A stretch of 64,000 nucleotides of DNA from Burkholderiales bacterium (GCA_025927765.1 JAICKU010000010.1:1-64000); one strand, 5' to 3'; positions 3,046 to 32,445 are shown, counted from the stretch's first letter. The notes: generated by a model from the letters alone, not told the origin. Program-made: numbers and translations.

Positions 3046-3125
3046 GAAATGCGGGTCAGAGATGCATTTCCGACCTGATCCGCCGAACCGGTCACCGCGG
3101 GAAATGCATCTCTGACCCGCATTTC
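3046..3125. repeat. Intergenic hairpin element, copy 1
   Basis: Perfect 26-base arms (3046-3071 and 3100-3125) around a 28-base loop. The arm carries the family core GGGTCAGA, the inner segment GATGCA and the tip TTTCC. It begins 4 bases after the sulfatase stop codon, and the ribosome-binding site of the next gene (AAGGAGG) follows at once. Confidence 0.9.
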
Positions 3126-20273: not shown

Positions 20274-20358
20274 AAAATCGGGGTCAGAGATGTATTTCGT
20301 TGCGACTTCGCGCCGGCTTCCCGTGTGGCAGGCGAAATACATCTCTGACCCCGATTTT
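20274..20358. repeat. Intergenic hairpin element, copy 5
   Basis: Perfect 26-base arms (20274-20299 and 20333-20358) around a 33-base loop; core GGGTCAGA, inner segment GATGTA. The left end starts with A residues and the right end finishes in TTTT. It starts 3 bases after a stop and ends 2 bases before the next ATG, so it fills the whole gap. Confidence 0.92.
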
Positions 20359-22534: not shown

Positions 22535-22652
22535 AAAATCGGGGTCGGAAAATCGGGGTCAGAGATGCATTTCCGAGCGCAACGTTCGCACTGATGAGCA
22601 GCCGGCCCGGAAATGCGTCTCTGACCCCGATTTTCTGACCGGCCCCGATTTT
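22535..22652. repeat. Nested hairpin element, copy 7
   Basis: The inner hairpin has 27-base arms (22549-22575 and 22608-22634, one G-U-compatible mismatch; core GGGTCAGA, inner segment GATGCA). It sits inside 14-base remnants of another copy's ends: AAAATCGGGGTCGG at 22535-22548, and its complement with one change at 22639-22652. This looks like one element inserted in, or copied into, another. Confidence 0.88.
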
Positions 22653-25942: not shown

Positions 25943-26833
<891 letters not shown>

Positions 26834-26840
26834 CCCGCGT

Positions 26841-27554
26841 TCATCCGCACGCGCCGATCGCGGTCACAAGCGCCTGCGCCATCGCCTGCTCCAGTGCCTT
26901 TGGAAACGATCCGCTCGCCGTGACATGTCTCTGGTTCACCTCGAGCTCGACACCGACGTAGACGTCGCCCGCGAAGCGCTTGCGCAGCCACGCAGTGAGT
27001 CCATCGCTTCGGCCGAGGTACGGATAGTTGCGGCGAACGACGAGCGCGGGAAGGGCGATGCGCAAGGCGCGTTGCCAGCGAATGCATAGCTCGCGCTCGC
27101 GACGTCGCGACGGATCGTAGAGCAGTCCCACGTCGCCGCGCCGCTCGACGGTATCGAGCACGGGCGTGAACGAGTGCGACGAGACGTGCAGCACGCGCTG
27201 TCCGTTTGCGCACGCGTCGCGCACGAACGTCTCGACCTCGCGCCGATACGGAACGTAGCACTCGTCCGTCACCTGCGCGCGCACGCTCGCCGGTGCACGG
27301 CGCATCACCGGCGACTGGCGGAACTGCCGCCCCGGCGAACGATTGAGCTCGACGAGCAGCCGGCTCGTCGTCGACGCGACGAGCGTCGCGTCGAGGGCGC
27401 GCGTCAGCGCGTTCGCCATGCCGAGCGCGCCCGGGTCATAGCCGCGGTGCGACGCGAGCAGCGCATCGCAGTCGCGAAAGAGGTGCCGATAGCGCGCGGG
27501 AATCGCGTTGCCGCCGTGCTCGCACGTCACGAGGCGCGCGGGCGGCGGCTCCAT
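26841..27554 (-). CDS. N-formylglutamate amidohydrolase-family (FGase) protein
   Basis: 237 residues. The zinc-hydrolase blocks of the FGase family are visible: TCEHGGNAIPARY at the start, LLVELNRSP, HVSSHSFTPVLD and VGVELEVNQRHV. Classical members deformylate N-formyl-L-glutamate in histidine breakdown, but no hut gene is nearby. Its place as last gene of a minus-strand set with two amide-bond ligases and a C39-like peptidase suggests a different amidase role, such as trimming or recycling a gamma-glutamyl or similar peptide. It starts 10 bases after the ligase stop. The gene is only 8 bases from the convergent hydrolase gene. Confidence 0.88.
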   Translation of the reverse strand: MEPPPARLVTCEHGGNAIPARYRHLFRDCDALLASHRGYDPGALGMANALTRALDATLVASTTSRLLVELNRSPGRQFRQSPVMRRAPASVRAQVTDECYVPYRREVETFVRDACANGQRVLHVSSHSFTPVLDTVERRGDVGLLYDPSRRRERELCIRWQRALRIALPALVVRRNYPYLGRSDGLTAWLRKRFAGDVYVGVELEVNQRHVTASGSFPKALEQAMAQALVTAIGACG

Positions 27555-27563
27555 CGGCGCGTG

Positions 27564-28781
27564 CTATTCCCGCCCGTGGAACATGTGCCCGTCGCGCAGG
27601 CACTCGCACAGCCGCCCGTACACGTCGCGCAGCCGTCCGCGATCGGGTGACGGTCCGGTCGCACGCAGGATGCGTCGTGCGAGCGGTCCTTCGCGCAGGA
27701 TCGCGTCGAGCGTCGGTTGCCACCACGCGTGGTTCGCGGAGGCGTCGTCGAGCAGCGACGCCCACACGTCGCGCGCGGTTGCACGGCCCGACGCGATGCC
27801 GAGCGCGTGCAGGTATTCGGCATCGTCGATCACCGCTTCATCGGCATCGCGCATCGTGGCGAGCAGCACCTGCTCGAGCACCTCGGTGCCGATGCCCTGC
27901 TGCTCGTCGAGCGGCGCGTAGCGCTCCTCGAACAGCGACCGCGTCACTGCGCGCGCAGCGGCGGCGATCGCGAGGTCGATGTGCGGGCATTCCTGCACGT
28001 CGATCACGCGAATCTCGATCGCGGCGCGGTCGAATCGCGCGATGGCGCCCCGCGAGTTCAGCCACTCGTGCTGCAGCACGCTCGCCGTGTCGTGGCGCGC
28101 GATCTCGTCGTACATCGGCCGCAGGATCTTCGCGTCGTATTCGGCCTGCGTCTCCACCGTCTCCGGCACGACGCGCCCGCCGACGCTCGGCGTGACGGTG
28201 CAGTTGTTGCGATACGCGTCGAGCCGATAGTCGAGGAGGCCGCGCCATGCGCCGTCGGCGATGGGCGAGCTCGCGGCGAGCGCGGGCAGCAGCGGCACCA
28301 GCAGGCGGATGGCCGCGTGCAGCCGGGCGAACTCGCTGTCGCCCGCGAACGGCAGGTTGACGTGCATGCTCTGCAGGTTCGCCCAGCCGTGCGTACGGCA
28401 ATCGTAGATGCGGTCGTAGGTGGCATAGATCTCGCCGTCCCACAGCTCGGTCTCGTGCACCGGATCCATCCACGGATGCATCGCACCCGGCATGAGCCGC
28501 GCGCCGAATTCCGCGAGCAGCGCGTCGGCCGCGCGTACTTCGTCGTGAAAGCGCGGGATCAGCGGCGCGAGCCTCGCCGCGGGCTGCGCGTTCTTGACTT
28601 CCACCACGTGACGCACGAGCTCGTTCGACCAGCCCATCGGCCCGCGCTCGACGTCCGACGCTTCGCGCCCGGCGAAGCTCGCGAGCAGGCGCTCGGCGAT
28701 CGGCCGCACGTCGAGCGTCTCGCAATCGACGATCATGTATTCGAGCTCGATGCCGATGGCCGTGAACGCGGGCAGCGGCAG
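27564..28781 (-). CDS. GCS2-family carboxylate-amine ligase (YbdK-like), start uncertain
   Basis: About 405 residues. The family opens with GIELEYMIVD, which holds catalytic metal-binding glutamates; later blocks are MPGAMHPWMDP, HGWANLQSMHVNLPF, YRNNCTVTPSVGG and AIEIRVIDVQECPHIDLAIAA. GCS2 proteins join an amine such as cysteine to the gamma-carboxyl of glutamate or a related acid using ATP. No ATG, GTG or TTG occurs in this frame between the preceding gene's stop and the catalytic block. The ATG at 28736 would remove the motif. The CTG at 28781 is used here as a working start. It is the third gene of the four-gene amidoligase cassette. Confidence 0.85.
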   Translation of the reverse strand: MPLPAFTAIGIELEYMIVDCETLDVRPIAERLLASFAGREASDVERGPMGWSNELVRHVVEVKNAQPAARLAPLIPRFHDEVRAADALLAEFGARLMPGAMHPWMDPVHETELWDGEIYATYDRIYDCRTHGWANLQSMHVNLPFAGDSEFARLHAAIRLLVPLLPALAASSPIADGAWRGLLDYRLDAYRNNCTVTPSVGGRVVPETVETQAEYDAKILRPMYDEIARHDTASVLQHEWLNSRGAIARFDRAAIEIRVIDVQECPHIDLAIAAAARAVTRSLFEERYAPLDEQQGIGTEVLEQVLLATMRDADEAVIDDAEYLHALGIASGRATARDVWASLLDDASANHAWWQPTLDAILREGPLARRILRATGPSPDRGRLRDVYGRLCECLRDGHMFHGRE

Positions 28782-28852
28782 CGCGTGCTCGTCCTGCGCC
28801 GCTTCGTCGACGGCGCGATACGCCTCGACGTGCGCGGTGCCGGTGCGCTCGG

Positions 28853-30322
28853 CTACGCCGCGATGCGCCGGCGCTCCTGGATCCGCCGCAGGAACACGCC
28901 CATCACCTCCCGGTACAGCGCGTCCTTCAGCACCCCATCCTCCGTGTCCGTGTCGAGGTTCGGGTTGTCGTTCACTTCCATGACGTAGCATTGCTGGCCA
29001 TCCTGCTTGAGATCGACGCCGTAGAGTCCGTCGCCGATGAGGTTGGCCGCGCGCACCGCCGTGCGCACGACGATCTCGGGAGCTTCCCCGACCGACAGGG
29101 CCTGCGTCGAACCTTCGACGGTCCGGCCCCGTTCGCGTTTCACGATCTGCCAGTGTCCCGGCGCCATGAAGTACTTGCACACGTAAAGCGGCCGCCGGTC
29201 GTACACGCCCACGCGCCAGTCGAACGTCGTCGGCAGCCATTCCTGCGCGACGACGAGATCGGATTTCGCCAGCAGGTCCTCGCATACGTCGCGCACCGCT
29301 TCCGGCGTTTCGACTTTGGCGACACCCAGTGAGAACGCGCTGTCCGGCTGCTTCAGGATGCAGGGGAGCCCGAGAAGCGGAACGATCTGGTCGACGTTGT
29401 CCCGATGCACCATCAGCGTCTTCGGCACGGGCACGCGGTGACGGGACAGAAGCTCGTTCAGGTACACCTTGTTGGTGCATTTGAGGATCGAATCGGGATC
29501 GTCGACGACGACGAGCCCCTCCTGCGCCGCGCGCCGCGCGAATTGGTACGTGTGGTGGTTGACGTTCGTCGTTTCGCGAATGAAGAGCGCGTCGAAGGCG
29601 GCGAGCTTCTCGATGTCGGCACGGCCGATCACGGTGGCGCGCATGCCGAGTGTCCTGGCCGCATCGCAGAGCTTCGCGATCGCCGCCGGATTCGACGGCG
29701 GATGCGCCGCGCTCTCGTCGTAGAGGATCGCGATCTGCGGTGCGCCGGTCGGCGCTTCCTTCATGCGCGGACGCGGACTGCGCGTCATGAACTCGCGCGC
29801 GGCCTCCGCCACGTGCGGGCGCAGCGTGGCGTCGACATCGGCGACGCCGACGAGCGCGAGGTCGCGCAACTGCCAGCGCCCGCGCGGACGATCGAAGAAC
29901 GCGCGAAGCAGCGGGATGCGCAGCGTCGCGAACAGCTGCTGCGCGAGGCTCTCGTGGCGCCTCGTCGGATCGTGGCCGAAGAACGCGTCGAGCACGAACG
30001 TCGCCTCGCCGCTTTGCGCGAGCGCGCGCTGCAGCTGCTCGTTGAAGCTCGCCGGCAACAGGCGGTCGAGCGGCTCGGGCGTCTGCAGGTCGCCGAGCGT
30101 CTTCACTTCGGGCATCGGCCGGTGGCCGCGCGCTTCGGCCAGCAGCGACACGTAGTAGCCGCGTCCCTGGTAGCGCTCCGTTCGGCAGAGGTTCAGCACG
30201 CGCGCCGAGTTGTTCTCGCTGTAGGCAGGATCGGTGAGGTAATCGCGCGCGGTGACGATTCGCATCCCTTCGACTTCGAAGGGCCAGTCGCGCGGGTGGT
30301 TGACGACGACGAGCATGCCCAT
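28853..30322 (-). CDS. RimK-like ATP-grasp ligase with RLAN N-terminal domain
   Basis: 489 residues from the ATG at 30322 (MGMLVVVNHPRDWPFEV), 11 bases after the peptidase stop. The N-terminal 200 residues match the RimK-like ATP-grasp N-terminal (RLAN) type (ENNSARVLNLCRTERYQGRGYYVSLLAEARGHRPMP). The C-terminal half is ATP-grasp: IRETTNVNHHTYQFARRAAQEG, ATP-binding lysine in CILKQPDSAFSLGVAKVE, and the Mg-binding end VMEVNDNPNLD (E449, N451, N453). Such ligases add amino acids to the carboxyl end of an acid, peptide or protein using ATP. With the GCS2 ligase, peptidase and FGase neighbours it probably makes a peptide-like metabolite or tag. Confidence 0.9.
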   Translation of the reverse strand: MGMLVVVNHPRDWPFEVEGMRIVTARDYLTDPAYSENNSARVLNLCRTERYQGRGYYVSLLAEARGHRPMPEVKTLGDLQTPEPLDRLLPASFNEQLQRALAQSGEATFVLDAFFGHDPTRRHESLAQQLFATLRIPLLRAFFDRPRGRWQLRDLALVGVADVDATLRPHVAEAAREFMTRSPRPRMKEAPTGAPQIAILYDESAAHPPSNPAAIAKLCDAARTLGMRATVIGRADIEKLAAFDALFIRETTNVNHHTYQFARRAAQEGLVVVDDPDSILKCTNKVYLNELLSRHRVPVPKTLMVHRDNVDQIVPLLGLPCILKQPDSAFSLGVAKVETPEAVRDVCEDLLAKSDLVVAQEWLPTTFDWRVGVYDRRPLYVCKYFMAPGHWQIVKRERGRTVEGSTQALSVGEAPEIVVRTAVRAANLIGDGLYGVDLKQDGQQCYVMEVNDNPNLDTDTEDGVLKDALYREVMGVFLRRIQERRRIAA

Positions 30323-30332
30323 GCGCAAGGAG

Positions 30333-31145
30333 TCAGTGAGATCTTCGTTTCCGGTCGAGCGCGGCACGCGCCTTCGGGTACACGACGAGCAGGTTCGCAT
30401 CGTGCGTGACGATGCCGAGCAGGATCGCGGCGACCACGCGATCGACGTCGATCCAGTATTCGTGCGACGGTCCCCAGGGATTGGGCTCGTACGGATCGAC
30501 GACCATCACGCGGCGCGAGCGCGCGTCCCACCCGGCGATCACGACGAAGTGCCCCACGGGGTGGCCGCGCACGTCGTCGAGCGTGCCGTCCGGCAGTTCG
30601 CGCTCGGAGCGATACAGGTACGTCGCCGAGAGGCCGGCGAGAATCGGCAGCTGCCGACCGAGGATGCGGTGGATCAGGAGCTCGGACAGGTTCGCGAAGC
30701 GGAGCCGCCCGCCGAGCGCGAGGAACTCGAGATAGCCGTCGATCGCGTGCTGCCCGCGCCGCTCGTCCTTGAGGTCGCGCTGGCGCTTGAGCTTGTCGAC
30801 GAGGTCGACGCCGGGCGTCGTGAACCACGTCGGATCGAACACGGTGAGGTTGTACGTGTAGATGCGCGCGCGATAACCGTTTCGCAGCGCATCGCACGCG
30901 AGGTACACCGCATACGTGCCCCCGTGCTCGAGCTTCCACATGCGCTCGATCACGCCCGGTAGCGGCTCGTCGTTGTCGAAGAAGTTGTAGATCGCGTGCA
31001 GGCAGGTCGGTCCGCACGTCGTCTCGTCCGGCTGGGGGAGCGTCGTGACGGAAAGGCGAAACGACTGCGCATGCGCATCCGGGGCTTCGGGGCTCCGGGC
31101 GGGCGATTCACGCGTCAGCGATGCGACATTGCGGCCTGGTTGCAA
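30333..31145 (-). CDS. C39-like cysteine peptidase
   Basis: 270 residues from a TTG at 31145; no ATG or GTG precedes the catalytic segment in this frame. The catalytic residues of a papain-fold C39-like peptidase are visible: oxyanion Q38 and C44 in QPDETTCGPT, H199 in GHFVVIAGWD, and D217 in VVDPYEPN. C39 peptidases cleave leader peptides after double glycine in bacteriocin export, but there is no transporter domain or precursor gene here. As first gene of the amidoligase cassette it more likely cleaves the ligase product, a carrier peptide or a protein substrate. It is cytosolic by sequence. Confidence 0.85.
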   Translation of the reverse strand: MQPGRNVASLTRESPARSPEAPDAHAQSFRLSVTTLPQPDETTCGPTCLHAIYNFFDNDEPLPGVIERMWKLEHGGTYAVYLACDALRNGYRARIYTYNLTVFDPTWFTTPGVDLVDKLKRQRDLKDERRGQHAIDGYLEFLALGGRLRFANLSELLIHRILGRQLPILAGLSATYLYRSERELPDGTLDDVRGHPVGHFVVIAGWDARSRRVMVVDPYEPNPWGPSHEYWIDVDRVVAAILLGIVTHDANLLVVYPKARAALDRKRRSH

Positions 31146-31308: not shown

Positions 31309-32445
31309 GTGGCGCCGATAGAATGGCGCTTCCGTCGTCCTTCCGCCTTCGTGTCCTCGCCGCTCCAACTTGCCGACCTGCGCCGCTACGCGATCGCGCG
31401 CTCGCTCTTCACGGCCGGGGATCTCGCCGCATCGATCGAACGACTCGGCTTCGTGCAGGCCGATCCGATCCGCGCGCCGGCGCGGGCGCAGGACCTCGTG
31501 CTGCGCCACCGCGTCGCCGATTATCGTGTCGGCGATCTCGATCGCGCATATCCGGCACTCGACGTCGAGGAGGACGTGCTCGTCAATTACGGGTTCGTCG
31601 CGCGACGGCATTACGCATCGATGCATCCGCGACGCGTGCGTCCCGCGTGGGCGCCCGCGCGAAGACGGCGCGCGCTCGCGATGCTCGACTTCATCGCCGA
31701 GCGCGGCGAAGCGCATCCGCGCGACATCGAAGCGCGCTTCGGGCACGGCGCGGTCACGAACGCATGGGGCGGTTCGTCGAACGCGACGACGCACCTGCTC
31801 GACGCCATGCACTACCGCAGCCTGCTGCGCGTCGCGCGGCGCGACGCCGGCATTCGGATCTATGCGCTCCCCGGCCCGCTTCCGGAAGCGTCTTCGACAC
31901 CGGCGGCGCGCCTCGATGCGCTCGTCGACGCCGTCGTCGCGAAGTACGCGCCGCTGACCGCTTCGGGGCTGTCGCTCGTCATTCGCCGGCTTCGCTACGG
32001 CGCGCCGCAGCTCGCCTCCGGCCTCGACGCGGCCCTCGCGCGGGCGAAGCGGCGACTCGCGCATGCGCACGTCGACGGCGCGGAGTGGTATTGGCCGGCC
32101 GACGAATCGCCGTACGCGATCGCCGAGACGCTGGACGCGGGCGTGCGGCTCCTTGCACCGTTCGATCCCGTCGCCTGGGATCGCGCGCGCTTCGAGCGGT
32201 TCTTCGGCTGGGCATATCGCTTCGAGGCGTACACGCCGGCCGCGAAGCGCAAGCTCGGCTACTATGCGCTGCCGCTGCTGCACGACGATGCGATCATCGG
32301 CTGGGCGAACGTCGGCGTGAACGAGGGCACGTTCGCCGCCGACCTCGGCTACGTGAGCGGCGCGGGACCGCGCGGCCGCGCGTTTCGGAGCGCGCTCGAC
32401 GACGATCTGTCGCGCATGCGGCGTTTCCTCGAACCGCGTTCATGA
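31309..32445 (+). CDS. YcaQ/AlkZ-like DNA glycosylase (HTH_42 winged-helix family)
   Basis: 378 residues from a GTG; a second GTG at 31351 would begin at SSPLQLADLRR. The family consists of three winged-helix-like units and repairs interstrand cross-links and bulky alkyl adducts. The catalytic Q-x-D motif is in LGFVQADPIRAPARAQDLVLRHR (Q48-A-D50 by the longer start), matching the YcaQ rather than the AlkZ form. Other family blocks are VLVNYGFVARRHYASM and LLAPFDPVAWDRARFERFFGW. Its start is divergent from the amidoligase cassette across a 163-base gap in which I see no clear promoter motif. The methyltransferase start overlaps its stop. Confidence 0.85.
   Translation: MAPIEWRFRRPSAFVSSPLQLADLRRYAIARSLFTAGDLAASIERLGFVQADPIRAPARAQDLVLRHRVADYRVGDLDRAYPALDVEEDVLVNYGFVARRHYASMHPRRVRPAWAPARRRRALAMLDFIAERGEAHPRDIEARFGHGAVTNAWGGSSNATTHLLDAMHYRSLLRVARRDAGIRIYALPGPLPEASSTPAARLDALVDAVVAKYAPLTASGLSLVIRRLRYGAPQLASGLDAALARAKRRLAHAHVDGAEWYWPADESPYAIAETLDAGVRLLAPFDPVAWDRARFERFFGWAYRFEAYTPAAKRKLGYYALPLLHDDAIIGWANVGVNEGTFAADLGYVSGAGPRGRAFRSALDDDLSRMRRFLEPRS

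Follow-up and report, generated by a model that had tools for sequence, protein, structure and literature searches.

Four genes on the minus strand of a Burkholderiales bacterium (running from position 31145 to 26841 of the window, the stretch of 64,000 nucleotides analysed here) encode, in this order, a C39-like cysteine enzyme, an RLAN-ATP-grasp ligase, a GCS2-family ligase and an FGase-family amidohydrolase, and this cassette is spread over at least eight bacterial phyla. In our estimation there is about an even chance that it constitutes a self-contained cytosolic pathway to a small non-ribosomal amide-linked compound, probably a di- or tripeptide of the gamma-glutamyl type. The evidence comes from the conservation of the gene order, from the folds and the invariant residues of the enzymes, and from the neighbours which the RLAN family keeps in other genomes.

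The four genes and their enzymes

A sequence-only reading of the window had described a tight minus-strand unit of four genes at 26841-31145, and the coordinates, strand, order and Pfam families were all confirmed. The first gene (30333..31145; TTG at 31145, stop at 30333) encodes a papain-fold cysteine enzyme of the C39-like type with 270 aa; the second (28853..30322; ATG at 30322) a carboxylate-amine ligase of 489 aa, which combines an RLAN domain with an ATP-grasp part of the RimK/LysX type; the third (27564..28781) a carboxylate-amine ligase of the GCS2 family, that is with the glutamate-cysteine ligase fold; and the fourth (26841..27554; ATG at 27554) an amidohydrolase of the FGase family with 237 aa, a zinc enzyme by family. 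Ten bases separate the C39 and RLAN genes and nine the GCS2 and FGase genes. Both flanking genes, coding for an AlkZ-like protein (31309-32445) and a dienelactone hydrolase (25991-26833), are located on the plus strand, opposite to the cassette. At some distance from it, the motif AAATCGGGGTCAGAGACGC occurs in three inverted pairs (3047-3124, 20275-20357 and 22550-22633), whose copies lie about 60-65 bases apart and which resemble REP-like intergenic elements; six matches are present in the window, where 0.01 would be expected.

The same reading had held canonical start codons to be missing. This is true for the GCS2 gene and half true for the C39 gene, for which there is only a TTG, but not for the RLAN and FGase genes, both of which start with ATG. 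The conserved core of the GCS2 protein begins at about 28781; from an in-frame ATG at 28991, well within the RLAN gene, down to this core there is no further in-frame ATG, GTG or TTG, and the only other candidates are two CTG codons (28781 and 28775). An ATG was chosen near the start of the GCS2 gene in 70 of 85 relatives, and the stretch read in a congeneric genome (L045) contains no ATG, GTG or TTG. Translation from a CTG, or through coupling to the stop of the RLAN gene, is possible. Signal peptides are not evident in the cassette enzymes (the C39 protein having been judged by eye), and all four appear to be soluble, with complete active sites; the catalytic roles of the invariant residues given below are those which, from general knowledge of the families, we take them to have.

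The first enzyme belongs to the C39-like peptidases (Peptidase_C39_2, PF13529) both by its family score (E 3.3e-6, 28.2 bits, cut-off 24) and by a Gln/Cys/His/Asp set (Q38, C44, H199 and D217), which is invariant in 57 sequences; PF13529 is matched by 57 of 57 relatives, and a match in the PDB is the C39 domain of ComA (E 0.0012). Unlike the C39 peptidases of bacteriocin exporters, which come with a fused or linked ABC transporter, it is a stand-alone protein of 270 aa and has no constant transporter neighbour.

In the second protein, the RLAN domain (PF14401) scores 138 bits (1.9e-40, cut-off 25) and RimK (PF08443) 33 bits (6e-8, cut-off 21), so that RLAN, well above its cut-off, is fused to a RimK-like ATP-grasp, as is expected of the RLAN family. 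The AlphaFold model (pLDDT 91.1) places its ATP-grasp part nearest to LysX, ArgX and RimK, all of them amino-acid amide ligases (structure comparison with LysX 3vpd: Z 28.4, rmsd 2.2, 265 aligned; with RimK 7qys: Z 27.4, rmsd 2.8, 272 aligned). K284, K323, D367-W-R369, D436 and E448-x-N450 are invariant in 62 sequences (numbered along the aligned 488-residue sequence, which begins one residue after the ATG). Membership in two narrower families was rejected: the protein scores 59.4 bits against a cut-off of 143.4 for the RimK alpha-L-glutamate ligase subfamily (TIGR00768) and 24.8 against 408 bits for the glutathione synthetase model, the agreement with GshB being one of folds only.

The third protein matches GCS2 (PF04107) with 79 bits (4.8e-22), and its model (pLDDT 95.4) is closest to Salmonella YbdK-like 1tt4 (Z 40.3, rmsd 2.5, 346 aligned), followed by E. 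coli YbdK 1r8g (Z 39.7) and the plant glutamate-cysteine ligase 2gwc (Z 35.9). With this fold, the catalytic acidic residues and the ExR motif, it belongs to the GCS2/YbdK-type ligases; E27, E29, E69, E76, N157, R201 and E271-x-R273 are invariant in 74 sequences (numbered in the translation from 28826). It is only 15-16% identical to its nearest solved relatives, and although YbdK is the closest solved fold (Z 39.7-40.3), it is not a member of the YbdK subfamily TIGR02050, where it reaches 59.4 bits against a cut-off of 176.4. A literature check on the glutamate-binding arginine of glutamate-cysteine ligases gave nothing.

The two ligases also bear on the main rival to a small-molecule pathway, which is reversible protein tagging of the RimK type: a protein would receive amino acids or a short tag from the RLAN-ATP-grasp and GCS2 enzymes and lose them again through the C39 or FGase enzyme, as RimB trims the products of RimK. 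The solved relative nearest by sequence to the ATP-grasp part is indeed RimK (7qyr, E 3.2e-12), Dop and PafA, which share the GCS2 superfold, are matched by the GCS2 model with a Z of about 21, and the pairing of ligase and peptidase resembles that of RimK/RimB (PMC12239564) and of the Anbu operon (PMC6376114). However, the ligase stays below the RimK subfamily cut-off, and the GCS2 model fits small-molecule ligases (Z 40 and 36) far better than Dop/PafA or the glutamine synthetases (Z about 15). Considering also that the 80 loci analysed below contain no conserved linked protein substrate, we regard protein tagging as rather unlikely.

The fourth protein matches FGase (PF05013) with 74.5 bits (1.8e-20); its closest solved protein in the PDB is 2odf (E 1.5e-30), and E12-H13, H36, D40, H123, H127, E203 and E205 are invariant in 49 sequences. 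It was N-formylglutamate hydrolysis that gave the FGase family its name, and one could therefore imagine a catabolic operon, with the FGase and C39 enzymes breaking down an amide, for instance N-formylglutamate, by hydrolysis and the ligases recovering the fragments, or, as a variant, with the FGase acting as the deformylase HutG in histidine degradation. The latter role had been named at the outset as one that would speak against the cassette. It is disfavoured, because neither a second FGase nor hutH was found in the host genome (95.6% complete), and the cassette FGases form a subfamily of their own, on whose profile other FGases reach only 26-28 bits. Two ATP-consuming ligases, moreover, fit catabolism poorly, and we consider the catabolic reading, including its histidine variant, very unlikely.

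Conservation and co-inheritance of the cassette

One genome per species was scanned with nothing but an alignment of the GCS2 protein and five relatives, which confirmed 515 encoding loci; the best 80 were analysed with profiles of the four families. Among these best 80 of the 515 loci, 60 have exactly the order and strand C39-RLAN-GCS2-FGase, 12 further loci miss nothing but an adjacent FGase, and several of the remaining 8 are cut by contig ends. Between neighbouring genes there is mostly an overlap of 4 bases or a distance of up to about 10 (median gaps -4, -4 and +2 bases), and since the order recurs with such gaps in 60 of 80 loci and in many phyla, the arrangement is not due to chance. 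RLAN of the cassette type was found in Pseudomonadota (mostly Betaproteobacteria, but also Gammaproteobacteria), Planctomycetota, Thermodesulfobacteriota, Hydrogenedentota, Myxococcota, Bacteroidota, Balneolota, Rhodothermota and Gemmatimonadota. Many of the hosts are metagenome-assembled genomes; one of these, labelled Klebsiella pneumoniae (L184), is probably a mislabelled bin.

The best 80 loci had been picked by similarity, so the search was extended to 349 genomes sampled evenly from the host's order. GCS2 of the cassette type is present in 12 and RLAN in 14 of them; all 12 GCS2 genomes possess RLAN, and in 11 it lies 948-1026 bases upstream on the same strand, while in the twelfth the two genes are found on different contigs, one of them small, near the contig ends. 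A comparison of the four-gene order across genomes had been suggested from the sequence alone, and genes that are rarely neighbours elsewhere would have told against a cassette; the exact order in 60 of 80 loci and the linkage to RLAN in 11 of 12 genomes of the order sample show them to be constant neighbours. The distance matrices of the four protein families also correlate (r 0.48-0.69, permutation maximum 0.31), to which the shared species history contributes in part.

Deviations from the complete operon concern above all the FGase. Eleven genomes without an adjacent FGase were checked: four of them (Blastopirellula and three Nitrosomonas) have an unlinked FGase, which scores 316-349 bits on the cassette profile, the FGases of two others score 26-28 bits, and from four of the 11 FGase is wholly absent. 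The Nitrosospira operon (Nitrosospira multiformis L188/L194; also L122) has no RLAN between C39 and GCS2; a cassette-type RLAN (714 bits) is kept elsewhere in the genome. Because such separate FGase and RLAN genes are retained, the cassette genes tend to stay together in a genome even when unlinked. Given the four genomes without any FGase, the core consists of C39, RLAN and GCS2, to which FGase is commonly added as a fourth.

Apart from the four families, nothing is constant: no fifth gene, transporter or regulator accompanies the cassette throughout the 80 loci, no fusions among the four families occur in the loci examined, and no short open reading frame within 1 kb on either side is conserved across phyla, the clusters reaching at most 4-5 loci, all from Pseudomonadota. 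No protein or RiPP substrate is thus genetically linked to the cassette, which weighs on a further possibility, namely a graspetide-like RiPP, whose ribosomal precursor would be cyclised by the ATP-grasp enzyme and relieved of its leader by the C39 enzyme. Even though an ATP-grasp enzyme and a C39 peptidase are typical RiPP parts, and the graspetide ligase PsnB appears at rank 48 among the fold matches, the gaps between the genes are too small for a precursor inside the operon, and neither a conserved precursor gene nearby nor a constant transporter was found in these loci, so that a RiPP seems to us extremely improbable. None of the four proteins matches the PADLOC models of anti-phage defence.

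In thiobacilli and relatives (L120, L126, L150 and L152), the flanks look, by eye, like stress-islet genes, comprising a ribosome-hibernation factor with a cold-shock domain, a ribose-phosphate pyrophosphokinase and a PolX-like protein; these flanks may hint at a role in stress.

Relation to predicted and known amidoligase systems

The cassette has the composition of a linked-amidoligase neighbourhood, with at least two ligases of the ATP-grasp, GCS/GS or GNAT fold together with peptidases in one conserved operon. Iyer et al. are said to have predicted in 2009 that the products of amidoligases and peptidases with linked genes are peptide metabolites or tags, and reportedly sketched in the same work a class of RLAN with a GNAT-C39 fusion; the Pfam text for RLAN reportedly mentions GCS2 neighbours. 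The prediction was restated in a later paper (PMC4431377), and a review (PMC10318531), the only relevant match of our literature search on RLAN, PF14401, PF11814 and DUF3335, names only DUF3335 and credits the GNAT-DUF3335 idea to Iyer et al. 2009. Since its kind was predicted in 2009, the cassette is a well-conserved variant rather than a new category, and apparently one untouched by experiment. Our analysis adds that the four genes keep their exact order over many phyla, that parts are retained even when unlinked, that the active sites are intact, and that there is a clean split between GNAT on the one hand and GCS2/FGase on the other.

This split emerges from the other RLAN loci. In an even sample of the phylum, 72 of 398 genomes contain RLAN, and in the loci fetched from it no GCS2 or FGase of the cassette type is found near RLAN. 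Instead, 36 other RLAN loci carry a papain-like gene of the DUF3335 type, which in most cases adjoins the RLAN frame or overlaps it; its domain is fused to GNAT in 7 of 7 cases checked by Pfam and is homologous to the cassette C39 enzyme (hhalign probability 97.5%, E 7.8e-12), the alignment matching up their CGP and His-Asp motifs. The DUF3335 type is absent from all cassette loci, and a tree of 136 RLAN rows displays only two changes between the cassette and the remaining contexts; a single paralogue, located next to an M17 aminopeptidase, is the exception. The GNAT-C39 class (PF14401 with PF11814/DUF3335) has the RLAN-ATP-grasp family and a homologous papain-like partner in common with the cassette, whose C39 enzyme lacks GNAT and stands instead with a GCS2 ligase and, in most cases, an FGase. 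Because the other sampled RLANs mostly stand with GNAT-C39 and none with GCS2/FGase, there are two alternative partner sets around one core of ligase and papain-like enzyme. The constant part would then be these two proteins, and the other amide- or acyl-forming activity would be supplied either by GNAT or by GCS2 together with FGase.

The host genome itself contains a second RLAN gene (L042:9788-12088, plus strand, contig C120), which forms an in-frame fusion with an M17 leucyl aminopeptidase and has lost most of its ATP-grasp part. In a congener (L047), RLAN and M17 are separate and adjacent, so that the fusion in the host looks like an internal deletion.

Among characterised systems, glutathione biosynthesis shows the same pairing of ligase folds (GCS in GshA, ATP-grasp in GshB), and phytochelatin synthase, which acts on glutathione, is papain-like too. 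The cassette differs in that its ATP-grasp enzyme is RimK/LysX-like with RLAN and not GshB, in its additional FGase and in the remoteness of its GCS2 protein. With the glutamylation of S6 by RimK/RimB (PMC12239564) it shares a RimK-like ATP-grasp and a peptidase partner, but the linked peptidase is C39-like and not a retropepsin such as RimB, which has no counterpart among the constant neighbours in the 80 loci, and a GCS2 ligase is present in addition. The Anbu operon, consisting of an ATP-grasp protein, alpha-E, a transglutaminase-like protein and Anbu (PMC6376114), is likewise a conserved four-gene operon of amidoligase and peptidase type, but the cassette enzymes fall outside the Anbu, alpha-E and transglutaminase families in Pfam.

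A putative pathway and its significance

A soluble pathway to a small amide is suggested by the glutathione-type ligase folds, the two amide-acting hydrolase folds, the lack of a linked precursor or protein substrate and of a constant transporter, regulator or fifth gene in the loci analysed, and the absence of evident signal peptides. In such a pathway, the GCS2 enzyme would activate a carboxylate with ATP, most likely the side chain of glutamate or of a similar acidic amino acid, and couple it to an amine, whereupon the RLAN-ATP-grasp ligase would form a second ATP-driven amide bond and add a second unit, in the manner in which GshB follows GshA in glutathione synthesis. The C39 enzyme might cut or transfer part of the product, as a hydrolase or transpeptidase comparable to phytochelatin synthase acting on glutathione, and the FGase-type zinc enzyme might strip an N-acyl or amide group, which would either free a blocked intermediate or serve the turnover of the product. 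As FGase is absent from some genomes, the step assigned to it is not essential everywhere. The substrates, the order of the steps and the small-molecule product are what we infer from the enzymes, and the gamma-glutamyl bond is a guess based on the fold and the conserved motifs.

The original idea that two ligases, a peptidase and an amidohydrolase jointly make a peptide metabolite or tag has thus gained in part: the neighbours are constant and both ligases keep their catalytic signatures, but the FGase lies outside the invariant core. Of the two products we favour, by inference, the metabolite over the peptide tag; the target might still be a protein whose gene lies elsewhere, because RimK, the nearest solved relative of the ATP-grasp part by sequence, modifies a protein.

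More broadly, and with somewhat less than even confidence, we propose that an ancient core of RLAN and papain-like enzyme, partnered by GNAT or by GCS2/FGase, gives rise to two families of cytosolic peptide compounds, serving as cofactor, redox buffer or stress solute in many phyla, including ammonia oxidisers and Planctomycetota. The presence of an operon of the same order in at least eight phyla, with hosts such as ammonia and nitrite oxidisers, thiobacilli, degraders of aromatics and planctomycetes, speaks for a useful compound yet to be described. Hosts are available in culture (Aromatoleum, Noviherbaspirillum, Nitrosospira and Blastopirellula), and the product should therefore be directly findable; its discovery would assign a chemistry to the RLAN family.
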